The translations under genes were made by a program, and so were the position numbers. From a virus: 64,000 nt of DNA. The first letter of the stretch is position 1. Each line of letters starts with the position of its first letter. The notes beneath the pieces are model-generated. The model ran no database searches. It was not told where the DNA came from and saw only the letters and a program-made list of their open reading frames with translations. Positions 14,365 through 36,428 of the stretch are shown here, in pieces. The stretch lies in the IMG/VR virus record IMGVR_UViG_3300042879_004726, positions 1 to 64,000 of that record; one strand, written 5' to 3'.

Positions 14365-16077
14365 CTATAGTTTAACTAATTTAGAAAATCCCTTTATCTT
14401 TTCTGCTTGATAAACACCATCAAATTTATCTTCCAGTCCAATTTTATGTGAGATTACAAATACATTGGTATCCTTTAAAATATATTTAATAATTTTAAGA
14501 AAATCATCACTTCCTGCACTATCTAGAGAACTATCAAAAACTTCATCAAATAAAATAATATTACAATTAGTTGAGTTTTTAAATTTTGCAATTTCTCTCC
14601 AAGCAAAAATCAAGGCAAGATTAATTCTTGACTTTTCACCTTCAGAAAAAGAACTATATGAAAAATCTTCTTGAATTGGAGATTTAATTTCTTCATTAAA
14701 TTCTTCATCTAAAGTAAAATTTACATAAAAATCCATCATTTGCAAATAACGATTAACTTGCTGATTTATTAAAGGTAAATATTTTTTAATAATTTTAGAT
14801 TTTACCCCACCATCTTTAAGTAAATTATAAGTGAAATCATAATAATGAATTAAATCTTTTTTAGATGCAAGGTCTTCATATATGTGTTGAAGATTATCTT
14901 CAAATTCTTTTAATTTTACGTGTTCAATATTTTTGTTCTCAATCTGTTCGGCAATAGTTTGAATTTCATATTGAATATCTTGAATTTGTTTCTGTTTAAT
15001 AGAAACACTTGTATGATTTTGTATAATTTCATTATTAAATTTTACTAATTCTTTTGACAGTGTTAAAAATTTATTCTCTTTACTTTCTTCTTCTTGAATT
15101 GTTAGTTTTAAGTCCTGATACCCAGATTGTAATTCCTTGGCTTTATTTTGATAATCATCAATCTTATTTAATCTAAATTCTTCATTAATTGATTGAGTAC
15201 AAGTTGGGCAAACAGTATTAGTTGAAAAAAATTTATGTTCTTCTGCAATTATTGATATTTTTTCAGATAACTTACCTTTCAAGTTTACAAGTTTTTTAAG
15301 TTTGTCTGTAGAATTTGCATATTCATCAATATTTTTCTGGATATCAACAATATTAGTCTCAATAATTTTATTACCATTTAATAAATTTTTGATTTCTTGA
15401 TTTAAACTTGAAATTATTTGTTTTTTATTTTGAATATTTTCCTTTTCACGTTTTTCAAGTTCGTCAATAAAGTTATTTTGCATTTTAACTTTATCTGAAA
15501 GGGATTCTTTTTTTAAATCAAGGGTTTTAATTTCATCTTTTATTTTACGTATTTTTTCTTTAATTACAATATTCATAGAAGAAAAAATTTTAATATCCAA
15601 TAAATCCTCAATCACTTCTCTACGATGAGCCGATTGAAGTTGCATAAATGGAATATAATTACTTGAACCTAAAATTACTATCTGAGTAAAACTTTTAAAG
15701 TCCATTTTTAGAACATTTTGCTCTAACCATTTTTGTTGTTCTAATACTGCAGATTGATCTAATGATTTTCCATCTTTTTGTATTTCAAACAAATTAGGCT
15801 TAATTCCACGAATTATTTTCCATTCAGTATTTCCAATTGAAAATTCAACCTCAACTCTACAATCCTTTTCATTTATAGAATTAATCAATTGATTTTTATT
15901 TATTTTACGATATGCCTTTCCATAAAGTGAAAAACATAAGGCATCTAATAAAGAACTCTTACCACTTCCATTAGTACCGATAAGAAGATTAGTTCTATGT
16001 TCTGTAAAATCAATTTCATTAAAATGATTACCAGTTGACAAAAAATTACGGTAACGAATTTTTTTAAATAAAATCAT
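14365..16077 (-). CDS. 46: Recombination endonuclease subunit gp46 (Rad50-like)
   Basis: A 570-aa SMC/Rad50-type ATPase that works with gp47 to resect DNA ends for recombination-dependent replication. Walker A is GTNGSGKS at residues 34-41. Long coiled coils run from about 165 to 430 and are broken by a zinc hook CPTC at 290-293. The ABC signature FSEGEKSRINLAL and Walker B IILFDEVFDSSLD are near the C-terminus, followed by the His-switch FVISHKIG. The start ATG 16077 overlaps the DUF3110 gene by 14 nt. The protein is complete and close to the T4 length. Confidence 0.93.
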   Translation of the reverse strand: MILFKKIRYRNFLSTGNHFNEIDFTEHRTNLLIGTNGSGKSSLLDALCFSLYGKAYRKINKNQLINSINEKDCRVEVEFSIGNTEWKIIRGIKPNLFEIQKDGKSLDQSAVLEQQKWLEQNVLKMDFKSFTQIVILGSSNYIPFMQLQSAHRREVIEDLLDIKIFSSMNIVIKEKIRKIKDEIKTLDLKKESLSDKVKMQNNFIDELEKREKENIQNKKQIISSLNQEIKNLLNGNKIIETNIVDIQKNIDEYANSTDKLKKLVNLKGKLSEKISIIAEEHKFFSTNTVCPTCTQSINEEFRLNKIDDYQNKAKELQSGYQDLKLTIQEEESKENKFLTLSKELVKFNNEIIQNHTSVSIKQKQIQDIQYEIQTIAEQIENKNIEHVKLKEFEDNLQHIYEDLASKKDLIHYYDFTYNLLKDGGVKSKIIKKYLPLINQQVNRYLQMMDFYVNFTLDEEFNEEIKSPIQEDFSYSSFSEGEKSRINLALIFAWREIAKFKNSTNCNIILFDEVFDSSLDSAGSDDFLKIIKYILKDTNVFVISHKIGLEDKFDGVYQAEKIKGFSKLVKL

Positions 16078-16336
16078 AATAAGTATTTGGGGGAACTACA
16101 ATATCATCAGAAGTAATCACGGTATATTGATAATCATGAATTTGGCAGGTTTTTAACATTATTTCATCTTCAATTTCAATTACGTGCATTTCTGGAAATC
16201 CATTTTCTTCAAGCATCATAGCATATCTAACAGCATCATCCTCTTCCTGAAAGATATAAAGGATTTGTTCACCATCCTCATTCTGAACCGAATATGCGCC
16301 TTCATTTTCCTTTCCACTGATTGTTATTAAGAACAT
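16064..16336 (-). CDS. DUF3110-like protein between gp47 and gp46
   Basis: A 90-aa protein, MFLITISGKENEGAYSVQNE, with EDDAVRYAMMLEENGFPEMHV and IHDYQYTVITSDDIVVPP. The GAYSV...DDA.RYA..LE..GFP pattern matches DUF3110, a small domain otherwise typical of cyanobacteria and plastids. It starts 3 nt after the gp47 stop and overlaps gp46, so the three are made together. Its function is unknown; the position suggests it may act with or regulate the gp46/47 complex, but this is inference. Confidence 0.75.
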   Translation of the reverse strand: MFLITISGKENEGAYSVQNEDGEQILYIFQEEDDAVRYAMMLEENGFPEMHVIEIEDEIMLKTCQIHDYQYTVITSDDIVVPPNTYYDFI

Positions 16337-19929: not shown

Positions 19930-20367
19930 TTAACCCAATCCAGACATAAATTTTTGATAATCAATTGAATTTTTAATTTGATATGTTCTATTGTGTAACA
20001 TTTTCAAAATATCATTGAGGTAATCGATCATAATATTGTAATAGTCTATTTTTAAAATAACAGAAGATAATTTTTCATCAGCGTCAAGATACTTTTGCAT
20101 TGTATCTTTATCTCTAATTTTCTTTGGAAATGGACACTCGATATAAACTTCAGGATCTGCCTTTCCAGAATAATATTCGTATCTTTCGTGCCTAATATTA
20201 CTTTTTTGTTGTTCTGCTTTTTTCTTAAGAAGAATTATATTATTATATAAATCAAAATATTTTGCGTGAAGAGATGGTACTTTTAAAGATTCTGTATGTA
20301 AATTGTCTATATCTATTTTCGAATCACTTTCCCACATTTTTTGAATCATCTCTAAACTAATACTCAT
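19930..20367 (-). CDS. uvsY: Recombination mediator UvsY
   Basis: A 145-aa protein that loads the UvsX recombinase onto gp32-coated single-stranded DNA. The SLHAKYFDLYN helix, ERYEYYSGKADPEVY (matching the YYSG...D motif of T4 UvsY), and DKDTMQKYLDADEKLSSV are present. The length is close to the 137 aa of T4. It overlaps the 3' end of the upstream tail-tube-like gene by 4 nt (ATGA) and precedes uvsW by about 50 nt, the usual order. Confidence 0.85.
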   Translation of the reverse strand: MSISLEMIQKMWESDSKIDIDNLHTESLKVPSLHAKYFDLYNNIILLKKKAEQQKSNIRHERYEYYSGKADPEVYIECPFPKKIRDKDTMQKYLDADEKLSSVILKIDYYNIMIDYLNDILKMLHNRTYQIKNSIDYQKFMSGLG

Positions 20368-20924
20368 AATGGATTTCCATTTAAATCTGTTATATTGTAA
20401 ATAGTATACTTGAAATTTACTTCTGCTGTAAAGTAATTTATATCAGTATTTGTAGCATCAAAATCCAAAGAAGTTAAACTGTAAGGCCAAAGGTCATTGA
20501 ATTTAATTTTAAAATTTGGTCTCATAGAACTTCCTAAAATAGTTAATGTTCCATCAGAAAAAATATTCATCATTTTTGAATCTGAACCATCAAATGATTT
20601 ATTTTCATTTTGTAACTCAAATATTTCATTTAAACTTTCTGGATATCCCAAACCTCTAATCCATTTTTGTATTTCCATATAATTTTCAAGGTCTTCATCT
20701 ACAATAAACCTTAAATTAAAATCATCAAATTGCATTTTATCACCAGGAACATCAATATTTTTTAGATATGTTGGTTGCTCTGCAATTCCTAAGGTAATTC
20801 CTGGTATATTTGCCAGATTGCTAAAAAAAGATACTTTTGGTGCTCGATTTAAAGTAAATTCAAATCCTGTGGGAGATAAGAAATTTCTATTTTTTATCTG
20901 TCTATCTGAGATATTAGATGCCAT
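20364..20924 (-). CDS. Tail tube-like structural protein, gp3-position tail completion candidate
   Basis: A 186-aa protein: NFLSPTGFEFTLNRAPKVSF, then NLANIPGITLG, DKMQFDDFNLRFIVDEDLENY, and a C-terminus TDINYFTAEVNFKYTIYNI. The strand pattern and the IPG...F.D..L.F..DEDL..Y core resemble the tail tube fold of gp19. In T4-like cyanophages a gene in this place, between gp23 and uvsY, is often called the gp3 tail completion protein. It could be a tube terminator at the neck or a baseplate tube cap. It is separated from gp23 by the inserted plus-strand endonuclease. Confidence 0.6.
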   Translation of the reverse strand: MASNISDRQIKNRNFLSPTGFEFTLNRAPKVSFFSNLANIPGITLGIAEQPTYLKNIDVPGDKMQFDDFNLRFIVDEDLENYMEIQKWIRGLGYPESLNEIFELQNENKSFDGSDSKMMNIFSDGTLTILGSSMRPNFKIKFNDLWPYSLTSLDFDATNTDINYFTAEVNFKYTIYNITDLNGNPL

Positions 20925-20925
20925 T

Positions 20926-20955
20926 TTGGATAATTATTGACTATGAGTATATAAT
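20926..20955 (+). promoter_or_regulatory. Possible sigma70 promoter for plus-strand endonuclease
   Basis: TTGGAT (20926-20931), an 18-nt spacer and a perfect TATAAT (20950-20955) on the plus strand, about 21 nt before ATG 20977. The -35 is weak. A second option, TTGACT at 20937 with TTAGAT 17 nt on, is poorer at -10. Confidence 0.35.
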
Positions 20956-20976: not shown

Positions 20977-22494
20977 ATGTTTAAAACTAAAGAAGAATTA
21001 AAAAACTATTTATTGGATAATTGGAATAAGTCAAATTTCATCAAAGTATCCTTAAATAAAAATGTTAAAAATATAATAGAAAATGAAACAACATTTTTAA
21101 ATAAGTATTATCAAAACATTCCTTTGAGAACCAGAGCTTATGTGATAATCAATGAAATAATAGAAAATACACTACCAAAATGTAAATGTGGATGTTCTCA
21201 AGTTTGTTGTATTGATAGGACTTATAGTGAAAGGGGATTTAGGTTGTATGCTAACTCAGAATGTTCCAGAGGAGATAGTAAAATTGATGAAAACTCTAAA
21301 TCAAAACTTGAAAATTATAATTGGTTATTTAATGAAAGAATAATTTTGAAAAAATCAATTGAAAACATATCAAATGAATTAAATGTTTCAACAATTTCTG
21401 TAGTTAAGTACCTTAAAATGCATCAATTGCATAATTTAATTGATGCAAGAAGAAGAAATAGTTATAGTACAAAAATATTAAGTGACAAAGAGAAGTTGAA
21501 TGAATTATATGATAGTGGATTGACCTGTGAACAAATTGCGGAAAAATTAGGAACTACAAAGTCTACTGTATCTCGTTGGTTGAATAATTATAATATTAAA
21601 ATAAAAGATTCAAACTCATATGAAAGAAAGGTTAAAAAAATAAGTAAAGAGGAAAATACATTATTTGAATTTATATCATCAATTTATTCTGGTACAATTA
21701 TACAATCAAATCGTTCAATATTAAAAGGAAAGGAATTAGATTTATATCTACCCGATAAAAATTTAGCAATAGAATATAATGGTTTATATTCTCATCAATA
21801 CAGACCTACAGAAATTAAAGAATCTTTAATTAAAGATAAATCTTATCATTTAAATAAAACAAAAGAGTGTGAGAATCAGGGAATACAATTACTTCAATTT
21901 TATAGTGATGAATGGTTAAATAAACCTGAAATTGTAAAATCAATTATAACAAGTAAATTAAATTTAAATGAAAAAATTTATGCAAGAAAGTGTGAAAAAG
22001 TAATTATAGACACTCATACAAAAAATACATTTCTAAATCAAAATCACATACAGGGTGAAGATAAAAGTAAAGTTAAACTTGGATTATTATATTGCAACGA
22101 ATTGGTATGTTTAATGACTTTTACTAAATCAAGATTTAATAAAAATTATATTTGGGAACTTTCTAGATTTTCAAATAAAATTGGTTTAAATGTAATAGGT
22201 GGATTTAGTAAATTATTAAAATGGTTTAGAGAGAATTATGATGGAAATATTGTTTCATATGCTGATAGAAGATATTCAAATGGAAATGTTTATATTAAAA
22301 ATTCATTTAATATAATAAAAATAAATTCACCATCATATTATTACGTTGATAAAAATTACAACCAAAGATATAATAGAATGAAATTTCAAAAAAAACTTAT
22401 TGGTGCTTATCAATGTACTGAATTTGAAAAAGCAAGAGAAATGGGATATAATAAAATATTTGATTGTGGTAATATTTGCTTTGGTTTGGAATAA
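20977..22494 (+). CDS. Free-standing EDxHD (Vsr-like) homing endonuclease
   Basis: This 505-aa protein is the only plus-strand gene. The N-terminus has a Cys cluster (CKCGCSQVCC) and two HTH-like segments (SIENISNELNVSTISVVKYL; LTCEQIAEKLGTTKSTVSRW). The nuclease core, about residues 250-310, is KGKELDLYLPDKNLAIEYNG (E/D), LYSHQ (H), then ECENQGIQLLQFYSDEW, the EDxHD pattern of Vsr-like homing enzymes such as I-Bth0305I. A C-terminal GNAT-like part (KLGLLYCNELVCLMTF...YADRRYSNGN) is usual in this family. It is very AT-rich compared with gp23. Its opposite strand and its place between gp23 and a tail gene point to recent insertion. Its target is unknown. Confidence 0.85.
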   Translation: MFKTKEELKNYLLDNWNKSNFIKVSLNKNVKNIIENETTFLNKYYQNIPLRTRAYVIINEIIENTLPKCKCGCSQVCCIDRTYSERGFRLYANSECSRGDSKIDENSKSKLENYNWLFNERIILKKSIENISNELNVSTISVVKYLKMHQLHNLIDARRRNSYSTKILSDKEKLNELYDSGLTCEQIAEKLGTTKSTVSRWLNNYNIKIKDSNSYERKVKKISKEENTLFEFISSIYSGTIIQSNRSILKGKELDLYLPDKNLAIEYNGLYSHQYRPTEIKESLIKDKSYHLNKTKECENQGIQLLQFYSDEWLNKPEIVKSIITSKLNLNEKIYARKCEKVIIDTHTKNTFLNQNHIQGEDKSKVKLGLLYCNELVCLMTFTKSRFNKNYIWELSRFSNKIGLNVIGGFSKLLKWFRENYDGNIVSYADRRYSNGNVYIKNSFNIIKINSPSYYYVDKNYNQRYNRMKFQKKLIGAYQCTEFEKAREMGYNKIFDCGNICFGLE

Positions 22495-22516
22495 AAAAGG
22501 GGAGGTTTCCCTCCCC
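22493..22516 (-). terminator. Strong terminator after gp23
   Basis: On the minus strand GGGGAGG-GAAA-CCTCCCC forms a 7-bp GC stem with a GAAA tetraloop followed by six T residues. It lies 24 nt after the gp23 stop. The stop codon of the opposing endonuclease gene overlaps the T-run; on the plus strand there is no T-run after the stem. Confidence 0.85.
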
Positions 22517-22539: not shown

Positions 22540-23973
22540 TCACATAAGGTTTTTGATAGCAACTCTTCTGTAGTAACGGTTAGAGTTAACTTGAAGTCTT
22601 CCAAGACCTTGAGTTGTACCTTCTGCAAAGGGATTAGCAACCATACCATAACGAGTCTTAAATCCAATCTTGGGTTGGAAGGTATTCTCACCAACGGCAC
22701 GAACCATTTGGAGAGGAACATAAGGACAATAGAAGAGACCAGCGTCATAAGGAGAAGAACCCTTATATCCAACAACATAATACTGGTTTCCTGGAGAAGC
22801 ATTAGCAGCAGTCAGGTTAGCAGCATATGGGTCAATATAAACGCGGAATTTGCCCATCAGAACACCAGCAAAAGTATTGCCAGTATCATCAACGTTCAGA
22901 TTTGAATTAAGAGCAGGAGTATAGTCAAGAACTCCAGCCATTGTTAAAGCAGATGCAACGTCAGCAGAACAAAGAACAATGTTGCCCTTTCCTCTACGAG
23001 TTCTCTGAGTGATAGCGTTAGCATCTCTTTCAATTTGGAAGAGAAGACCTTTGAATTTCTCAACAGACCAACGACCGTTAGAGTCAATATCAAGGTCAAA
23101 GACACCAGGAGTTGCAACGTTTTGAACTGCACCCTGTTCTGCAACCTTATAGATGGTTCTGATAACTTCACGGTTGATTTCAGCAAGAATCTCTGTGGAG
23201 AGAATATTTGCCAATTCCGCTTCAGCATTCAAACCGTGAATTGCCTTCAGGTCTTGTGCAAGCTCAAGACTGTACTCAGCTTTGAGTGCTCTAGATTTTG
23301 CAGTAACAGTAACTTTCTCAATTGAGAAAGCCATTTCGTTGAAGTTATTACCAGCAGAATCTCCAAGGATTTCTGAATCACCTGTAGGCATTCCTTGACC
23401 TACGTTATATGCGGTATCAACTCCACCACCACCAACAGGGTTCAATACAGATGGGTTTGAACCAGATTGAGTTGTAGTACCAATACCAGCAGCTGTACTA
23501 CCAAAACCTGCAATGTTAAATCCAGCATCCTGACCTGAGAATGCAGAATCTACTTCGTTATAGAAGGCTTCAGATCCACTCTGATTGCTATATCTAGAAC
23601 GCATCGCAAAGATGAGTCCAGTTGGTCCACTCATAGGCTGAACGCCAGCCACATCATAAGCGATGAGGTTAGGCATAGAACGTCTGATGAGTGAAATCAG
23701 AACTGGGTCAAAACCTGCAGTAGGACCACCAGCAGCGGAACCACCACCAAAACCACCTCCAAAACCAGCGGCATTACCACTGTTGGTTGGTGATGCTTCC
23801 ATCAGGTTGGAAAGATTTCCAACTTGGAATGATTGCTCTTCCCTTAAGAATTTTTCTTGGTTTTCTAGCAGGACAGCGGTTACAGCTCTACGATGAGAAT
23901 CTCTGATTGAATCAAGACCCTGATAATCTAAGAGAGGTGCCCACTTTTCCTGCAATTGTTCGGATTGGAACAT
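22540..23973 (-). CDS. 23: Major capsid protein gp23
   Basis: A 477-aa capsid protein forming the hexamers of the head, cleaved by gp21 during maturation. The N-terminal scaffold-binding part (MFQSEQLQEKWAPLLDYQG) is followed by the HK97-like core: PNLIAYDVAGVQPMSGPTGL, the variable YSNQSGSEAFYNEVD region, SIEKVTVTAKSRALKAEYS, and TRRGKGNIVLCSADVASAL. The C-terminus is RYGMVANPF...RYYRRVAIKNL. Codon use is more balanced than in neighbours, as expected for a highly expressed gene. A strong terminator follows. The gene has no intein. Confidence 0.96.
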   Translation of the reverse strand: MFQSEQLQEKWAPLLDYQGLDSIRDSHRRAVTAVLLENQEKFLREEQSFQVGNLSNLMEASPTNSGNAAGFGGGFGGGSAAGGPTAGFDPVLISLIRRSMPNLIAYDVAGVQPMSGPTGLIFAMRSRYSNQSGSEAFYNEVDSAFSGQDAGFNIAGFGSTAAGIGTTTQSGSNPSVLNPVGGGGVDTAYNVGQGMPTGDSEILGDSAGNNFNEMAFSIEKVTVTAKSRALKAEYSLELAQDLKAIHGLNAEAELANILSTEILAEINREVIRTIYKVAEQGAVQNVATPGVFDLDIDSNGRWSVEKFKGLLFQIERDANAITQRTRRGKGNIVLCSADVASALTMAGVLDYTPALNSNLNVDDTGNTFAGVLMGKFRVYIDPYAANLTAANASPGNQYYVVGYKGSSPYDAGLFYCPYVPLQMVRAVGENTFQPKIGFKTRYGMVANPFAEGTTQGLGRLQVNSNRYYRRVAIKNLM

Positions 23974-26675: not shown

Positions 26676-26683
26676 TATTTATA
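26676..26683 (-). promoter_or_regulatory. Late promoter TATAAATA before the prohead core gene
   Basis: An exact late octamer overlapping the last codons of gp20, 25 nt before ATG 26651. Confidence 0.6.
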
Positions 26684-29600
26684 TTACTCCACCTTTAGGC
26701 ATTTCAACTTGCTTTCCAGATGCAACTACATCTTTTGCTTGAGATTCAATATCAGGTTCAATTACAGGTTTTCCCAAATTCATTTGAGATGTTTGATCTA
26801 ATGGCATTCCAGTTTGTGGGTCAATAGGAATACTTGGATCTGGAATAACTCCTTTTTTAATTTCCTTTTCAATTTTTGCATCTTCTTCTACAATTTCAAC
26901 GTCTGTTTGGCGTAGAATTTTTCTTCTCACATAATCTTGTGAAAAATATTTCCCTACATATGGTTCTGCAATTTGTACCATACCTAGCCTTTCGTTTAAT
27001 AATTCTGCATCTTTCAATTCTGCAAAATGATTATCATAAAGAAAATCATACTGAATATGTTCATCCATCATTGACCAATCTTCTGGTGTGATGATATTTT
27101 TCAATATTAATTGAGTTTTTAACATATCACTAAACATATATGAAAATCTTTTTCTCAATCTAGAAACAAATTTACTAAATTTAACTTCATCTCTCAATAT
27201 TTCAGATGATTTTCCTAAATTAAATCCACCTTCTCCATCCATTCTTGATGGTGGAACATTTAAAGAATTATATAACTTTTTTTGAAAATAATTTATATCT
27301 GTAATTTCACCTAAATTCTGACCTCCAGGAAGTGTTGAAATTTCCGTTCCTCTTCCACCTTCTCTTCTTGGGAGCCAAAAATCTTCAAGCATTGCCATAA
27401 ATTTTTTATCGTCCCTAACCTCACCTGTTGAGTTGCAAGTGTAAATACCACAATCCAAAGCAAAAGTATGATAATCGTGATATAGTTCTTCCTTATCAAT
27501 TGTAAGGGTTCCCACATCCATAGTATCATCTAAAAATTCAATATTTTTAATTTTGTGATTTTTATAAATGAAAGAGTTTCTATATTCTTTCCAAGAATTG
27601 AAACCAAGTTGTCTACAAACATTAATTAAATTACTGTAAGTAAATTTACTTAAAGGTTCTCCCAAACCTTTTCCTTTGCGTGGTCTCTTTTCGGAGTTTA
27701 GTTCTATCCATGAAGTAAAATCAATGTTATCATTTACAAAAGAAATGGTATTATTTAAACTTAATCTTCTTTCGGCACATTCTTCAACAATATTAAAAAT
27801 TTGTTGAGTATACTCAATTGTTTGTTTATTAGATAATTTTTGTCTATATTCTTCTGAATTTTTTCCACCCCAAAGAGAGTTTTGAGCCAATTGGGTCATT
27901 TTTTGGAAGTGAGATTTTGGAATTGCTTTACCTCGCTCTCGTGCAGAATTTCTAGATTCTTCAGTCCAACCATTTCTAATGTTTTCTTTAAATTTTTCCC
28001 TAAATTTAATATCAGTTTTTAATTTATCTTGAAGAATTTCATTACCTTTTTTTGAATTATTAACTATTTCAGTTTTTGATAAACTATGAATTCCTGATTT
28101 TTTCAGGTAGCAATTTTTTCCACCTTTAGAACCATATATTTTACCATTTTCAATTTGCTGCTCTTTTGATATATTAAAAAATGGTAATCCCAATTCTCTC
28201 TTTCTTTGAGCACATACTTTGCCTCCTATTTTACCAGCATCACTACAATGTTTTTTATGGTATTCAAAATGGTCATCACGAGACATTCTGATCAAATTCT
28301 CTGGAGAATTATTATATCGGTCATAATCCTTATGATGAACTGTGCATTTATTCTCATCAATCCTTTCTTGATTAAAATTGTATTCATTTAAAAGATTATT
28401 TTGATCCTTCCAATTAGAAACTAATCTGTGAGTAAAAATCCACTTCTTACTTTCATTTTCATATAATTGCTCATAAGTAGAATTTTTATTTCCTGGAATA
28501 TTATTCTGTCTCTTATAGTGAGGAATCATAGAATCTCCAACTTTTAGATCTTTTGCTTCTACTTTTCCCTTATTCCAAACTGGAAATTTGTGATCCAATG
28601 TACACGTAATGGCTTCATCATTATCTAAAGTAATTCTCATTACTTTTTCGTTTTTGCGAGTTACTCCTGCCCAACTTATAATTCCAGGAGCAAATTTTCC
28701 AGTTTTAGGGTCACAGGAATATGCCCAAAGACGGTTTCCTTCATTAAATTCTTTTGTAATCTCAGATAGAGATAGAGTTCTACCATCTAAAAGGGGAATT
28801 TTGGTATCCATTGCAAGACAAGAATCATAAACAAGTTTATTTCTATAACGCATCATCACATCACGAAGATATTGTTCTGCCTTAACTTTTGGAAGATTTC
28901 CAACATCAATATAAAAAATTCTTCTTTCAGGGGCTCTTGATAATCTATAAATTACAAGAGAATCTTCAATCATTCTTAATTGATTGAGAGATTTAATTGC
29001 TTTATGTAAATATGAAAGTGTTGAACCTTTATTTCTATCTACAAGACCTGAAGTGCAATATGTTATTGAATCCTTTGTAAATTTAATCCCACTAGTTCCA
29101 CCTAAAGATGATGGATTAGTGGTTGGATAAGACATTTTAGGATTGTAAACAAAATACTCTTCAATCTCAGGAAATTCATATTCCATTGGATCATCAACAT
29201 TCATTCTCCCCAGACGATTTATTTTTTTATCATTTTCACTCTTCTTTTGTTGACGAACATAACGCATTTTCATTGCGTCAATGTATCTTAATTCTTGTAT
29301 TCCCGCTTCTGGATTTTTTAAATCTATAACTTTATGATAATAAAGTCTACCATCAACATACCAATTTCTGTAAATTTCGTGTGATTTTTTATCAAAATCT
29401 AAAAGTTCTAAAATGTACTTAAACTCTTGCCTTATTTTCTTTTTTATTCCATCACTAGCATTTAAATTATCTAAATCAATTTGTATTGGCGTATCATTGG
29501 TATCACTAACAATAGCTTCATTAACAATATCTTCAATGGCACTATCACATTCTGGGTGAAGTGCCATCTCACGATATCTTTTAATTAGATCGAATTCAGT

Positions 29601-29753
29601 TCTATAGACTCCTTCAATATCAACGTAAGAACCAAAGAATCCACTACTTAAATAAAAATCTGAAGAATCCTCATTATTGGGTGGAACTGGAGAAAGTATA
29701 GATGGGGATTCTTTTCCCTCATCTTCAATAGAGAATCCAAATAATTTTGCCAT
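26679..29753 (-). CDS. 20: Portal vertex protein gp20, interrupted by an intein
   Basis: The 1024-aa precursor consists of residues 1-311 of portal, a 463-residue intein (312-774), and 250 further portal residues. The spliced product would be 561 aa, close to T4 gp20 (524). Portal features are FFGSYVDIEGVYRTEFDLI near the N-terminus, RAPERRIFYIDVGNLPK, and after splicing DDKKFMAMLEDFWLPRREGG, with LPGGQNLGEI and NVPPSRMDGEGGF. The dodecameric portal is the DNA entry channel and the docking site for the terminase. The splice point falls in LVYDS|STGEVRDD, a strongly conserved stretch. A GATAAATA octamer lies 31 nt upstream. Confidence 0.93.
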   Translation of the reverse strand: MAKLFGFSIEDEGKESPSILSPVPPNNEDSSDFYLSSGFFGSYVDIEGVYRTEFDLIKRYREMALHPECDSAIEDIVNEAIVSDTNDTPIQIDLDNLNASDGIKKKIRQEFKYILELLDFDKKSHEIYRNWYVDGRLYYHKVIDLKNPEAGIQELRYIDAMKMRYVRQQKKSENDKKINRLGRMNVDDPMEYEFPEIEEYFVYNPKMSYPTTNPSSLGGTSGIKFTKDSITYCTSGLVDRNKGSTLSYLHKAIKSLNQLRMIEDSLVIYRLSRAPERRIFYIDVGNLPKVKAEQYLRDVMMRYRNKLVYDSCLAMDTKIPLLDGRTLSLSEITKEFNEGNRLWAYSCDPKTGKFAPGIISWAGVTRKNEKVMRITLDNDEAITCTLDHKFPVWNKGKVEAKDLKVGDSMIPHYKRQNNIPGNKNSTYEQLYENESKKWIFTHRLVSNWKDQNNLLNEYNFNQERIDENKCTVHHKDYDRYNNSPENLIRMSRDDHFEYHKKHCSDAGKIGGKVCAQRKRELGLPFFNISKEQQIENGKIYGSKGGKNCYLKKSGIHSLSKTEIVNNSKKGNEILQDKLKTDIKFREKFKENIRNGWTEESRNSARERGKAIPKSHFQKMTQLAQNSLWGGKNSEEYRQKLSNKQTIEYTQQIFNIVEECAERRLSLNNTISFVNDNIDFTSWIELNSEKRPRKGKGLGEPLSKFTYSNLINVCRQLGFNSWKEYRNSFIYKNHKIKNIEFLDDTMDVGTLTIDKEELYHDYHTFALDCGIYTCNSTGEVRDDKKFMAMLEDFWLPRREGGRGTEISTLPGGQNLGEITDINYFQKKLYNSLNVPPSRMDGEGGFNLGKSSEILRDEVKFSKFVSRLRKRFSYMFSDMLKTQLILKNIITPEDWSMMDEHIQYDFLYDNHFAELKDAELLNERLGMVQIAEPYVGKYFSQDYVRRKILRQTDVEIVEEDAKIEKEIKKGVIPDPSIPIDPQTGMPLDQTSQMNLGKPVIEPDIESQAKDVVASGKQVEMPKGGVI
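27432..28820 (-). mobile_element. HNH-containing intein in gp20
   Basis: A 463-residue intein. It begins at Cys1 (CLAMDTKIPLLDGRTL) and ends YTCN before Ser+1 of the C-extein. Block B is TCTLDHKFPV (T74, H77). Block F is near YHDYHTFALDCGIY. An HNH endonuclease core lies at residues 160-185, CTVHHKDYDRYNNSPENL, followed by a basic region with repeated NUMOD-like DNA-binding segments (GGKNCYLKKSGIHS; NGWTEESRNSARERG). The residue before the terminal Asn is Cys rather than the usual His. The boundaries are set by the intact portal sequence that results from joining the flanks. Confidence 0.9.
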
Positions 29754-32978: not shown

Positions 32979-34193
32979 TTAGTATTTCCACATATAATCC
33001 CATTCAGTTGATCTATCTCCATATTCATCTAAAAACCATCTATCTCCATCTTCATCAACAAAGGTCTTTTCTTCATTTAATCCATCAGATATAAATCCAA
33101 ATGGTGACATATCTTGCTCTATTTGATTCTTTTGTTCTTCATATAGTCTTTTTCTTACGTCTTGATCAGTAAGTTCTTTGAAATAATCTTGAGCAACTAA
33201 CCAAGCATAAATGACCAAGCACATTGCTAGGTCATCATTGCAACCTTCCTCAGCCTCAAAAGAATTGTGTTTTTGTATAAAAGTTGTTAATTCTGAAATT
33301 ATTTCATAATCGTTTAATATCAATTTACTTTCTTCAATCATAGTCTTGAGATTAAGACATCCAACTTTTTTAACAGTTTTTGACATCTTAACTCCTAATT
33401 GAGTCTTTTTACCCGAAAATCCTTGCCCAACAATTTGACCCGCCCTTCCTCTCATTGAACACATAAGAAGATTATTATATTCTAAATCATATTGAAGAAT
33501 ACTTGCTACTTGATCTCCAACATCGTTTACTTCACATAGAATATAAGAGTTATTATACGCAACTGCTGCTTCGTGTATTACACTTGGGAACAACATTGGT
33601 TTTATTTCGTTATGCCTATATTTCGCAACAACTTTATGAGGAAACTGAGTGATATCTATTATAGTAAATGCTGAATAATCATTTCCTACGCCTCTAGCAA
33701 CGTCTACAGTAATCAAATAGTCGTGTTCTTCTATAGGGTCCTCATAGACATCTAAACCAGCACTACGGGCCTTTGGGTGGTCATATACGAGCGTTCTGAG
33801 TTTACTTGGTGCAATAAGAGTATCAACAGAACCTAAAAATTCACAATTATGTGATACTATATTATTTGAATAATATAAATGATCAGTACCAGAATTTACA
33901 ATATCATATAATTCTATTGGTTCATTAATGACTTTTGATCTTTTTAAAAAGCAACCACCATTTTTTGTGTAAATTTCTGTAAATTTATCTAAATCTTTTG
34001 CTTTAATTATTCCTTCAATTGTAGATAATGGATGGTCTAAAGAACATTTTAATTCATTTCCATCTGTAAATGTTAAATGTATGTACTTATTCTTTGTTAT
34101 TTTATTAATACCAAAAAAGGATACTAAACCTTCTGGTGAAAGTATTTTGTGTCCTTTTTTGTTTAATACTACGCTTTCAGGAATTGTATGCAC
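32979..34193 (-). CDS. 17: Terminase large subunit gp17, C-terminal half with C-intein
   Basis: A 404-aa precursor: residues 1-116 are the C-half of a split intein, and 117-404 are the gp17 nuclease domain. The nuclease metal-binding motifs are ITVDVARGVGNDYSAF (Asp), ILCEVNDVGDQ (Glu/Asp) and GCNDDLAMC (Asp). The extein starts with Cys+1 (CEFLGSVDTLIAPSK). There is no ATPase domain, so this product alone cannot package DNA and must be joined to the upstream half by trans-splicing. The start is GTG 34193; an in-frame TGA lies just upstream, so no continuous frame with the N-half exists. Confidence 0.9.
   Translation of the reverse strand: MHTIPESVVLNKKGHKILSPEGLVSFFGINKITKNKYIHLTFTDGNELKCSLDHPLSTIEGIIKAKDLDKFTEIYTKNGGCFLKRSKVINEPIELYDIVNSGTDHLYYSNNIVSHNCEFLGSVDTLIAPSKLRTLVYDHPKARSAGLDVYEDPIEEHDYLITVDVARGVGNDYSAFTIIDITQFPHKVVAKYRHNEIKPMLFPSVIHEAAVAYNNSYILCEVNDVGDQVASILQYDLEYNNLLMCSMRGRAGQIVGQGFSGKKTQLGVKMSKTVKKVGCLNLKTMIEESKLILNDYEIISELTTFIQKHNSFEAEEGCNDDLAMCLVIYAWLVAQDYFKELTDQDVRKRLYEEQKNQIEQDMSPFGFISDGLNEEKTFVDEDGDRWFLDEYGDRSTEWDYMWKY
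33846..34193 (-). mobile_element. C-terminal half of atypically split gp17 intein
   Basis: 116 residues from GTG 34193. HKILSPEGLVSFFGINKI, then HLTFTDGNELKCSLDHPL (block B, with D-H), a LYDIVNSGTDHLYYS block F, and the end IVSHN followed by Cys+1. It resembles the C-part of AceL-TerL, which I recall with the same KILSP.G..F.GI.K order and the same insertion site in terminase. Terminal His-Asn and Cys+1 are all present, so it appears active. Confidence 0.88.
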
Positions 34194-34276
34194 TTGTTTA
34201 AAATTTTTTCAGGATAATTTTTATATTCCAATTGTTCTTTTGTGATATTTTTACTGTTCGTTTTTGAGTTGCTCAT
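34169..34276 (-). CDS. Tiny ORF bridging the split gp17 halves
   Basis: A 35-codon frame from ATG 34276 to TAG 34169, in a different frame from both gp17 halves and overlapping the end of the first and the start of the second. It reads MSNSKTNSKNITKEQLEYKN, then YPEKILNKCIQFLKA. The composition looks coding (Lys-rich, helical). It may be the remnant of an endonuclease gene once located between the intein halves, or only chance. There is no evidence of expression. Confidence 0.25.
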   Translation of the reverse strand: MSNSKTNSKNITKEQLEYKNYPEKILNKCIQFLKA

Positions 34277-36008
34277 ATAAGTCACCTATACATACATCTA
34301 TTATACCATTATTTATTGTAGTCTCAAAGGATAACGATTCAAACTCAACCTTAAATTGTTGTTCGCTGGTGTTAGCAATTGTCTGTTTTTTCCATTCTTC
34401 ATCTCTACCAGGAACCTCACTCCAATGAACATCGGTAAAAATATATTCATTTTTACCTTTTTCAGCATCGTGCCACATTCGGTAGAAATGATTCATACCG
34501 TGTGGAGTTGATACAATAATTACTTTTGTCTGTTTACCTGAAGTAATTGTAGGATATACTGATGCGAAGAAAGAATCTGCGATATGATTTGGTACGAACG
34601 CAAATTCATCCAAAAATAAAATATTGAATGACATACCACGAACCGCAGAAGCAGAAGTAGAAGCAGCCAAGATTTTACTTCCATTTTCCAATTCCAATGA
34701 ACCTTTATTCCAAGAAATAATTCCTTGCTGCATCCATTTTGGTAGATTTTCATATGCTGTTTGCAATCTATCTAAAAGTTCTCTTGCAGTTGCTGCCTTG
34801 TTTGCAAGAATACCAATATTTACATTATCATTAAATACTGCATAATGTAAAAGGAATGCAACTACTGTTGTTGAATTGTGTGTAGGTATAAAAGTTTTTC
34901 CACATAAAAATAAATGATCTTGATTATCAACTGAAATGCATTGCATAGGTTCAGTTTCAATTTTACGAATATCTTTAATATAAAGTCTTTTATTTTTTGG
35001 ATGGTCTAAACTATTTTTTTGTCTTTCTAATTTTCTTGGTAACGTAAAAACTTCATATTTATTTGTACAAAAACTTATGGTTCCATATAATCCAGAATAA
35101 CCGGATATTTTTTTGTACCTTAGTCTACTTTTAATACCCAATGAAGATAATAACTCTCTGACTTGATGTAACAATTTTCCATCTTTTTGATAAAATTCAC
35201 AAGCACCATTTGGAGATACTGAACCATCAGTATCCATCAATCCCTTTAAAAGTTCTAATCTTTGTGAAGTTGAAGATCTTAAATATTCTTCTGGAATGAT
35301 TTTTTCAGATATTTTGTTTATATCTTCATATAAACCAGTAATTGCACCATTTGATTTTGAACCATCTCCTAACCAAACGCCAAGAGTATAGGGGTCTATT
35401 GGAAGCTTAATTTCTGGTAAATCAATTGATTCATTTATTTGGATATAAATTGATGACGATTTAAATACTTTTTTAAGACAATTAAATTTTTCTATAATTT
35501 GATTTGTAGTCAGTATTTTTTCTTTATGATACCAATCACTATGAGAAACTTTCCATAAATGTTCACCACATGCTTTTATAATTTCTCCATTATCAAATTC
35601 AATCTCATAAGTATCTATTTGTTGTATAGGAGATTTTCCAATTACTTTTGTAGTTTTCCCATCTCTTGCAAAAATAAGATCACCCACATTCAAATCTCCC
35701 ATATTAGTCCATCCAGTTGGTGTTGGGATGGGTGTATCAAGGGACAACATTTTTCCAGTCTGACGAGGCATCTTACAGATATTAAATCTGTGTTTATGGA
35801 AATTATTAATTAACTTTTCTTGAAAATGATATGGTTTAAATGATTGTAGTCCATGATCAAGAGTAACAATTTTTACATAATTATTTGCAAAATAAACAGG
35901 ATCATTCATACACTTCACAATCTCAAAAACCTGCTCTTCTGTAAACTCGTGAGTGGTATTTGCTTTTTTAAGTAAAGGATTGCCAAGATATACATCATTA
36001 TTTGACAT
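34251..36008 (-). CDS. 17: Terminase large subunit gp17, N-terminal half with two intein segments
   Basis: A 585-aa precursor of the DNA-packaging ATPase. Residues 1-86 and 379-557 are gp17; 87-378 are a complete intein; 558-585 are a short N-intein. The extein has KMPRQTGK|STTVVAFLLHY, the Walker A loop cut exactly by the first intein, then ILFLDEFAFVP (Walker B) and VIIVSTPHG (coupling motif). It ends QQFKVEFE before the split intein. After both splicing events and joining to the C-half, gp17 would be about 553 aa, the usual size. Unspliced protein has a disrupted P-loop and should lack ATPase activity. Confidence 0.92.
   Translation of the reverse strand: MSNNDVYLGNPLLKKANTTHEFTEEQVFEIVKCMNDPVYFANNYVKIVTLDHGLQSFKPYHFQEKLINNFHKHRFNICKMPRQTGKMLSLDTPIPTPTGWTNMGDLNVGDLIFARDGKTTKVIGKSPIQQIDTYEIEFDNGEIIKACGEHLWKVSHSDWYHKEKILTTNQIIEKFNCLKKVFKSSSIYIQINESIDLPEIKLPIDPYTLGVWLGDGSKSNGAITGLYEDINKISEKIIPEEYLRSSTSQRLELLKGLMDTDGSVSPNGACEFYQKDGKLLHQVRELLSSLGIKSRLRYKKISGYSGLYGTISFCTNKYEVFTLPRKLERQKNSLDHPKNKRLYIKDIRKIETEPMQCISVDNQDHLFLCGKTFIPTHNSTTVVAFLLHYAVFNDNVNIGILANKAATARELLDRLQTAYENLPKWMQQGIISWNKGSLELENGSKILAASTSASAVRGMSFNILFLDEFAFVPNHIADSFFASVYPTITSGKQTKVIIVSTPHGMNHFYRMWHDAEKGKNEYIFTDVHWSEVPGRDEEWKKQTIANTSEQQFKVEFESLSFETTINNGIIDVCIGDLYEQLKNEQ
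34254..34337 (-). mobile_element. Ultra-short N-intein of split gp17 intein
   Basis: 28 residues at the end of the N-half, starting at Ser1 (SLSFETTINNGI) and ending CIGDLYEQLKNEQ before the stop. It aligns in layout with the roughly 25-residue AceL-TerL N-intein, which as I recall ends in a similar IEDLYKRL. The splice donor is Glu in VEFE|S. Use of Ser rather than Cys at position 1 is the main difference. Confidence 0.85.
34875..35750 (-). mobile_element. Class 3-type intein in the gp17 Walker A loop, LAGLIDADG remnant
   Basis: 292 residues, from Met1 (MLSLDTPIPTPTGWTNMGDL) to His291-Asn292, followed by Ser+1. The usual Cys/Ser nucleophile at position 1 is absent. The three class 3 marker residues are present: Trp66 two residues after block B His64 (GEHLW), Cys271 at block F position 4 (MQCISV), and Thr290 in block G (PTHN). 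Two LAGLIDADG-like motifs lie at 123-131 (LGVWLGDGS) and 167-177 (LLKGLMDTDGS), but the gap between them is only about 36 residues, shorter than usual, which suggests an internal deletion in the endonuclease. Confidence 0.88.
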
Positions 36009-36014
36009 AATATA

Positions 36015-36428
36015 TTAACCTTTATTTTTTAAGTATAAAATTGCATTTTCTAAATTTTTAATATTATCCTTAAAATTTCCTAGACCTCTGTTACAATGAT
36101 GGCATAACATGCCACGAAATTTTCCTGTTCTGTGATTGTGGTCCATAACTAATGAATAAATTTTTCCAACATGAATATTATTTCTAGAACCTGCTACTTC
36201 ATTTCCACCACATATATCGCACTTTTCTTGTTGTTTTAATTTTCTAACCTCATCATCACTTAATTGCCCTCTAAATTTTCCTCTACATATTTCTGCTCTA
36301 TAAGTTGCCCTGCATTTTCTACACCAACTATCCAATCCGTCTTTACATTTGTTATGCGGAGGAAAATTTATAGTGTCTCTTGGTTTATTTTCTTTACATC
36401 TAGTGCAAGTTTTTGTATTCATGCCCAT
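36015..36428 (-). CDS. Endonuclease VII-like HNH protein
   Basis: A 137-aa product. An N-terminal zinc module (CTRCKENKPRDT..., CRKCRATYR) is followed by a second pair CDICGG and the endonuclease VII core: SLVMDHNHRTGKFRGMLCHH, CNRGLGNFKDN, then a helix ENAILYLKN. The DH..RTG..RG.LC..CN..LG pattern is that of the recombination endonuclease VII family (T4 gp49 resolves DNA junctions before packaging). Its place beside the terminase fits either a packaging-linked resolvase or a mobile HNH gene. ATG 36428 was used; 36422 is also possible. A CATAAATA lies upstream. Confidence 0.72.
   Translation of the reverse strand: MGMNTKTCTRCKENKPRDTINFPPHNKCKDGLDSWCRKCRATYRAEICRGKFRGQLSDDEVRKLKQQEKCDICGGNEVAGSRNNIHVGKIYSLVMDHNHRTGKFRGMLCHHCNRGLGNFKDNIKNLENAILYLKNKG

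Follow-up and report, generated by a model that had tools for sequence, protein, structure and literature searches.

An optional, probable Hef-like/EDxHD homing endonuclease gene with a Mom-like domain: intact, decayed and empty alleles beside the capsid gene of T4-like cyanophages

The window analysed here, a stretch of 64,000 nucleotides, is part of a 69,770-base IMG/VR virus record of a T4-like cyanophage, the closest relatives at the DNA level being Synechococcus phages, S-SM2 and B23 among them. A plus-strand gene, convergent with gp23, was identified in the interval that separates gp23 from gp3, two minus-strand genes (Table 1). The first-pass annotation had placed it between gp23 and a tail gene in the gp3 position, and the Pfam Gp23 and PHROG tail tube matches of the flanking genes agreed with this. 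Its description as the only plus-strand gene also holds for the 64-kb window, because, of the ten plus-strand ORFs that reach 90 aa, the remaining nine show 93–100 % overlap with an ORF on the minus strand. The start had been set correctly at 20977, but the end, set at 22516, included the gp23 terminator, as the ORF stops at 22494. The reported overlap of the stop with the T-run of that terminator was confirmed: the TAA codon occupies 22492–22494 and the A-run (the minus-strand T-run) 22493–22498, with two bases (22493–22494) shared, and the terminator stem follows at 22499–22516. The gene is, as had been noted, much more AT-rich than gp23 (23.1 % versus 43.2 % GC), but this contrast is uninformative and no sign of foreign origin, since uvsY (25.8 %), gp3 (27.1 %), gp46 (24.1 %) and the window as a whole (30.2 %) are also AT-rich and gp23 is the outlier. 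A foreign origin deduced from base composition was accordingly ruled out, the gp3-side neighbours being nearly as AT-rich as the gene; uvsY, gp3, uvsW and gp46 lie at 24–27 % GC. A search of the window with Rfam returned no group I intron or other known RNA at the gathering score.

Table 1. Features of the endonuclease locus and of the gp17 fracture, in coordinates of the 64-kb window
Feature	Position	Strand	Evidence or remark
gp3, tail completion/tube protein	20364..20924	-	phrog_45 tail tube, 6e-40; annotated gp3 in S-SM2
Sigma-70-like promoter candidate for the endonuclease gene, TGGATA-17-TATAAT	20927..20955	+	weak in the window
Putative Hef-like/EDxHD homing endonuclease gene, 505 aa, ATG start	20977..22494	+	phrog_3339; B23 homologue in the same slot
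Candidate late promoter, AATAAATA, that may stand in for the usual gp3 promoter; antisense within the endonuclease ORF	21007..21014	-	kept in L006, L007, L014, L032
Helix-turn-helix, residues 177-206	21505..21594	+	HTH_23 3.3e-8, above the Pfam cut-off
Nuclease domain, residues 224-330	21646..21966	+	profile match 3r3p_A; Foldseek 3r3p_B
Mom-like GNAT-fold domain, residues 335-505	21979..22491	+	Foldseek 8bv8; hhalign versus Mom
gp23 terminator, GGGGAGG stem and T-run	22493..22516	-	T-run overlaps the endonuclease stop
gp23, major capsid protein	22540..23973	-	Pfam Gp23, 9.2e-149
Remnant (35 codons, in frame, left by deletion) of the EDxHD-like endonuclease gene belonging to the split intein, within the gp17 fracture	34169..34276	-	comparison with the fracture ORF of relatives

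The encoded protein matched a PHROG homing endonuclease family (phrog_3339, 1.3e-96) over residues 11–503 of 505, and 406 phage records contained matches to it, many of them annotated as Hef-like homing endonuclease. The protein in the same slot of B23 was 58.5 % identical, with 31–46 % identity for the other phage matches listed. Intact copies compared with relatives 72–98 % identical displayed dN/dS values of 0.12–0.19, indicative of purifying selection, which together with the PHROG match shows that the gene is not a chance ORF. An AlphaFold model built with 17 relatives (mean pLDDT 83, pTM 0.56) arranged the protein as an N-terminal helical part, two HTH-like segments, the nuclease domain and a C-terminal alpha/beta domain; the HTH-like segment not listed in Table 1 is a helical one at residues ~105–150. 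When a profile of 17 sequences was compared with the PDB, the sole sensible match was the catalytic domain of I-Bth0305I (3r3p_A, E 0.0022), and Foldseek likewise placed the nuclease domain with this structure (3r3p_B, TMt 0.76, E 2.5e-3); profile A2 alone matched no PDB sequence at E up to 1. The putative active-site residues E253, D255, E266, H273 and H291 were identical in 17/17 aligned relatives. The two matches to I-Bth0305I support the initial assignment to the EDxHD homing endonucleases. Judged from sequence and model, the gene belongs with the free-standing (intronless) homing endonuclease genes, and more precisely with the Hef-like/EDxHD type, DNA cleavage being predicted.

The C-terminal domain and the deleted alleles described below had both been overlooked in the first-pass annotation. 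Foldseek ranked phage Mu Mom (8bv8, 3.1e-6) first among the PDB matches to the whole model, followed by a GNAT at 1.6e-3, and a model of the domain only (pLDDT 92.9) again returned 8bv8 first (1.0e-6; next entry 4.3e-4). VIA-align rated ordinary GNATs (Z up to 13.9) as high as Mom (Z 12.7), so the fold alone says GNAT. In hhalign, 14 C-terminal domains aligned with eight Mom proteins at a probability of 97.2 (P 3.4e-11, 139 columns), Mom being the only GNAT family compared. H48, E98, R101, D139 and Y149, which we take to be the catalytic residues of Mu Mom, aligned with H357, E394, R397, D430 and Y439 of the endonuclease. H48, E98, D139 and Y149 are invariant among Mom proteins and R101 is largely kept, and the corresponding H357, E394, D430 and Y439 are kept in 16/17 relatives and R397 in 17/17. 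The copy at locus L156 has lost H357, E394, D430 and Y439 and retains the nuclease residues, so either the Mom-like domain is dispensable there or that copy is decaying. The serine mutated in inactive Mom (S124 of 8bv8; S114 in the 231-aa numbering, by our own count) had no clear counterpart in the endonuclease. Pfam Mom (PF25680) did not match the window protein and matched only three of the 17 relatives at E up to 0.05, the best of them at 18.4 bits, below the cut-off of 27.1. Because of these sub-threshold scores and the unpartnered serine, we designate the domain Mom-like rather than Mom; sequence comparison points to Mom and the fold fits GNATs generally.

To describe the gp3–gp23 slot, we collected loci with both flanking genes; 150 rows were reduced to 146 distinct loci after removal of the window copy and three duplicates, and the counts exclude loci without gp3 or gp23 (11/80 in a gp3 scan and 12/80 in a gp23 scan, L155 among them). 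The gap was 110 bp or shorter, and thus empty, in 77 of the 146, 111–200 bp in four and longer in 65. All 77 empty slots contained the gp3 promoter motif and then the A-run of the gp23 terminator, a typical gap reading 5'-TATTTAGAT-AAAAAAAG on the plus strand of the window. A full-length family gene was present in 8/146 loci, namely L001 (the B23 locus), L006, L007, L008, L009, L010, L012 and L156, full-length carriers having been sought partly through the endonuclease gene itself; all of these copies run along the plus strand when the locus is oriented like the window. The gp3-based scan found the gene in 2/69 usable loci and decayed copies in two more, and the gp23-based scan found it in 1/68. 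Comparison with gene-free relatives, as the first-pass annotation had proposed, thus found the gene missing from most of them, and its presence at this spot in all relatives, which had been named as a finding against that annotation's reading, was not seen.

The decayed copies belong to loci L014 and L032, whose gp3 and gp23 proteins are 100 % and 99 % identical to those of the window, with flanking DNA 96–100 % identical in 100-base windows. In L014, nucleotides 107–1088 of the endonuclease gene have been deleted and a frameshift is present; L032 retains 28 nt from the start of the gene and 34 codons from its end. L174 displayed a 37-aa, 51 % match to the endonuclease, perhaps an old remnant. 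Two contigs from metagenome 3300003430 (L011 and L013) break inside the endonuclease gene with a 14-residue overlap, perhaps owing to the coexistence of intact and deleted alleles. The gene is an optional insert between conserved gp3 and gp23, and empty, intact and decayed forms all exist. This occupied, decayed and empty series at a capsid-side slot is new here, and it makes the slot a ready natural experiment, in which one homing gene can be compared in its intact, half-deleted and nearly erased states and with the empty site. Both decayed alleles come from phages about 99 % identical to the window; the position, next to the capsid gene, is fixed, and the cyanophages are abundant ones.

Intact carriers have the gene between the T-run of the gp23 terminator and the start of gp3, and most retain a late-promoter motif towards gp3. 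In L008–L012, B23 and L156 the insert is flanked by a promoter-type motif next to gp3 and by the A-run next to gp23 (judged by eye in L008, where the motif adjoins the stretch counted as gp3). A 17-mer at the slot junction, TATTTAGATAAAAAAAG, was found once per locus in 62/204 loci and never twice. With up to one mismatch it was present once in 8/20 whole records, in 0/6 whole records with the gene or a remnant of it, and was also absent from the window. As the 17-mer is unique where present and missing in carriers, the insert splits a genome-unique junction, which may be the target of the endonuclease or just the single position at which an insert leaves promoter and terminator both undamaged. 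A target in the last gp23 codons was rejected, the carriers having neither a common C-terminal variant nor a shared resistant sequence.

The terminator itself was associated with the gene. A GGAGG-type stem was observed in 9/10 gene-bearing slots versus 1/77 empty and 0/59 other slots (1/136 in total; Fisher 1.5e-12, lineage-collapsed 1.6e-6). The exception was B23, where a GIY-YIG gene stands between the endonuclease gene and the terminator, as it does in L155; in the latter, a 34-kb contig on which gp3 was not found, the endonuclease gene adjoins the GIY-YIG gene and gp23. The stem type travels with the gene, and gene and terminator have therefore been passed on as a unit, a sign of exchange at the gp23 end.

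Candidate expression signals were found for the gene and for its neighbour gp3. The sigma-70-like site upstream of the endonuclease gene agreed with 10/12 consensus positions in the window, where 6 % of shuffles were as good; it was complete in L012 (12/12; 0/500 shuffles), agreed at 10/12 in L009 and L010 and was unremarkable in L007, L008 and B23. In the clade of the window the usual gp3 promoter motif is missing, and the insert has a single minus-strand NATAAATA, 90 nt upstream of gp3 and within the endonuclease ORF; it is retained in four loci (Table 1). As 13 % of shuffles of the 120-nt region contained such a late-promoter motif, this embedded gp3 promoter is a lead that could be chance. 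Promoters of neighbouring genes are embedded in the T4 genes segG, segA, segE, mobB and mobC according to excerpts of PMC2988022, and NATAAATA is a late-promoter sequence known from S-PM2 and other cyanophages (PMC2984593, in part); CTAAATA appears, on our own reading, to be a variant of it in these phages. Across the whole window, NCTAAATA/NATAAATA occurred 38 times on the minus and twice on the plus strand, where shuffles expect 44–50 and 29–35. An excess on the minus strand was thereby ruled out, and the strand bias of the motif reflects plus-strand avoidance.

The gp23–gp3 slot is a general cargo site. GIY-YIG genes were present in it at L037, L038, L119 and L134, and in tandem with the endonuclease gene in B23 (L001) and L155, where the GIY-YIG/NUMOD3 gene is in opposite orientations relative to the endonuclease gene. 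Other cargo comprised small HNH-like ORFs (five loci; weak Pfam support, 0.005 in one of two tested), GDSL-like genes (11), halogenase-like genes (two) and others. Cargo loci (L076, L111, L122, L123, L180; L048, L069, L078, L125, L126, L159, L171) displayed small HNH-like, GDSL-like hydrolase, tryptophan-halogenase-like and deformylase-like types. The slot thus draws genes of the GIY-YIG and HNH-like types, and in T4 segD adjoins gene 23. This suggests that homing genes settle repeatedly at the 3' flank of the capsid gene.

Other inserts and nuclease genes were observed elsewhere. The gp20 portal gene of the window (26679–29753, minus strand) contains a full intein with a weak HNH match (residues ~312–775), and gp20 of B23 is of ordinary length (557 aa). 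Beside gp17, at 36015–36428 on the minus strand, lies an Endonuclease VII-motif gene (PF02945, 2.4e-15) whose DNA is 82.7 % identical to that of S-SRM01, most of the region being ~75 % identical to other phages; it is possibly another mobile nuclease, and F-CphI uses the same motif. Vibrio phage VP-1 (L229, 70000–90000) carries a Hef-like gene antisense between gp19 and gp20 and has a terminase gene that comes in two pieces and includes an intein-like match. In L220, a split-intein carrier, the portal gene has an insertion of ~1.2 kb (~14963–16182).

We consider it highly probable that the gene is a free-standing Hef-like/EDxHD homing endonuclease gene in active gain and loss beside the capsid gene, spreading by homing and lost by deletion; such a gain-and-loss cycle of homing genes was reportedly described by Goddard and Burt. 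In a mixed infection, the HTH segments would direct the nuclease domain to its site, within gp23 or close to it, on a genome without the gene, and phage recombination would repair the break from the carrier genome, copying the gene together with the adjacent terminator. The interval from promoter to T-run would be about the sole place where a 1.5-kb insert spares both gp23 and gp3. Opposite orientation and a host-type promoter may provide for early, separate expression, and in the clade of the window AATAAATA in the 5' end of the endonuclease gene may replace the gp3 promoter, which would favour the keeping of that end. The Mom-like domain, going by its fold and residues, would most likely modify adenines at or near the target and so protect carrier DNA. 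The fuller proposal, of a self-protecting homing endonuclease in which one polypeptide cuts gene-free genomes and its Mom-like domain marks adenines in or around its own target in carriers, is tentative and, on present comparisons, somewhat unlikely. Were it true, the published restriction-plus-momylation family would be a hybrid of homing and restriction–modification, both mobile and addictive. The Mom-like domain is a labelled but unexplained part of Hef-like proteins and raises a testable question, whether they modify their own target; if they do, homing genes and restriction–modification systems overlap in one protein.

The same domain architecture could belong to a restriction–modification or exclusion enzyme, in which the Mom-like domain marks the phage's own DNA, the nuclease destroys unmarked host or competitor DNA, and the patchy distribution is of the defence-gene type. 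PA5oct, credited with five momylating enzymes in the available part of PMC7824862, has five places matching the endonuclease, and the Mom-type residues are conserved in 16 of the 17 relatives; the fixed slot, the linked terminator and the deletion loss in near-identical phages, as expected for a mobile gene, argue against this reading, which we judge unlikely although it and homing are compatible with each other. The word 'homing' is absent from the accessible portions of PMC7824862. We regard as distinctly improbable a vertically inherited accessory gene of one cyanophage group, with a cellular function, many losses and no homing. Identities of the endonuclease and of gp23 do correlate (r = 0.70, 28 pairs), and the slot also takes non-nuclease cargo (GDSL-like, tryptophan-halogenase-like and small other ORFs), but the protein belongs to a homing endonuclease family in PHROG, its relatives in other phages adjoin unrelated genes, and L035 and L036, whose gp3 is nearer to that of the window (78 and 77 %) than is gp3 of the carriers L008–L012 (64–65 %), have empty slots. 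On a gp23 tree of 152 rows, from which seven gp23-bearing loci fetched for distant endonucleases had been dropped and in which L011 and L026 were counted as carriers, the 13 carriers implied at least four changes, with gain and loss indistinguishable.

A last alternative concerns gp17, which in the window is divided into two pieces (34251–36008 and 32979–34193, minus strand) and contains two inteins. The first, close to the P-loop, gave a LAGLIDADG-type match and also occurs in B23; the second, further on, is a split intein, relatives of whose C part are encoded by 12 IMG/VR loci. The first-pass annotation had described this split intein as being without its own endonuclease and had guessed at a functional link with the slot gene. 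No intact endonuclease gene of its own is present in the window; one does survive, however, as the 35-codon remnant, in which MSNSKTNSKNITKEQLE is fused to YKNYPEKILNKCIQFLKA. The fracture holds its own ORF of 374–390 aa with an EDxHD-like end in 8/10 relatives with both gp17 halves readable; L220 and L223 have likewise lost the fracture gene. Collaborative homing, whereby the slot enzyme would cut intein-free gp17 (or gp20 or gp23) and mobilize the split intein in trans, has a cyanophage precedent in F-CphI, which cuts intron-free psbA according to excerpts of PMC6083498, and VP-1 combines a Hef-like gene with an intein-like match in its terminase gene. Among 16 records, however, gene and split intein occurred together only in the window and probably in G010 (whose contig ends inside the intein), the gene alone in B23 and G012, the split intein alone in G027 and G032, and neither in ten (G015–G024; Fisher p = 0.24). 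The slot gene is ~11.7 kb from the fracture and not between IntN and IntC, and the similarity between the two nuclease families is remote (hhalign probability 66, 55 columns). Because both discordant classes occur and the intein has its own EDxHD-like endonuclease, the proposed link is unlikely, and collaborative homing is very improbable indeed.

The preferred reading, a homing gene in gain and loss, can be set against several known systems; the literature searched, with most subscription papers outside the search, contained no report of an endonuclease in the cyanophage gp3–gp23 slot and none joining Mom with Hef-like homing enzymes. EDxHD genes have reportedly been described by Dassa et al. 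(2009) in fractured, split-intein genes. They share the nuclease superfamily and are present in the gp17 fracture of relatives, but they belong to another protein family and place than the slot gene, and no Mom-like domain was seen in them. Hef-like homing endonucleases (phrog_3339 and phrog_559; VP-1, AR9, PA5oct and Campylobacter phages) combine a nuclease with the same C-terminal domain as the window protein. In five phages whose Hef-like neighbourhoods we compared, these genes adjoin a recombination/RecA-like gene (PSTCR6, SJ_PmiM), the virion RNA polymerase (AR9), an AAA+ ATPase gene (Vibrio 2.275.O) or lie antisense at gp19/gp20 (VP-1), whereas the gene of the window lies at gp23/gp3. 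The EDxHD prototype I-Bth0305I shares the fold of the catalytic domain and profile similarity, and it consists of a nuclease plus DNA-binding modules, like the window protein (PMC3943268, in part); it is intron-encoded (its PDB name is 'mobile intron protein'), in contrast to the free-standing gene with a Mom-like domain described here. Mu Mom has the same GNAT fold, and its His, Glu, Arg, Asp and Tyr have equivalents in the window protein, but the domain of the latter scores below the Pfam Mom cut-off, leaves the mutated Ser unmatched and is fused to a nuclease.

The nearest parallel in position is T4 segD, a free-standing homing-type gene beside gene 23, as the gene of the window lies beside gp23, and the one T4 homing gene that is antisense to its neighbours according to the available text of PMC2988022. 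It is a GIY-YIG gene at 23/24 with no promoter found, whereas the gene of the window is of the EDxHD type, lies at gp23/gp3 and has a promoter candidate. In architecture, the closest counterparts are jumbo-phage proteins that join a Mom domain to an REase-fold domain and for which restriction plus protection has been predicted (Iyer et al. 2021, PMC7824862, in part); the architecture is apparently the same, and PA5oct members match the window protein. Those fusions have been read in that source as restriction plus momylation, whereas the alleles described here are evidence for a mobile, decaying gene. New here is this evidence that a nuclease–Mom fusion, published as restriction–modification-like, behaves as a mobile gene.
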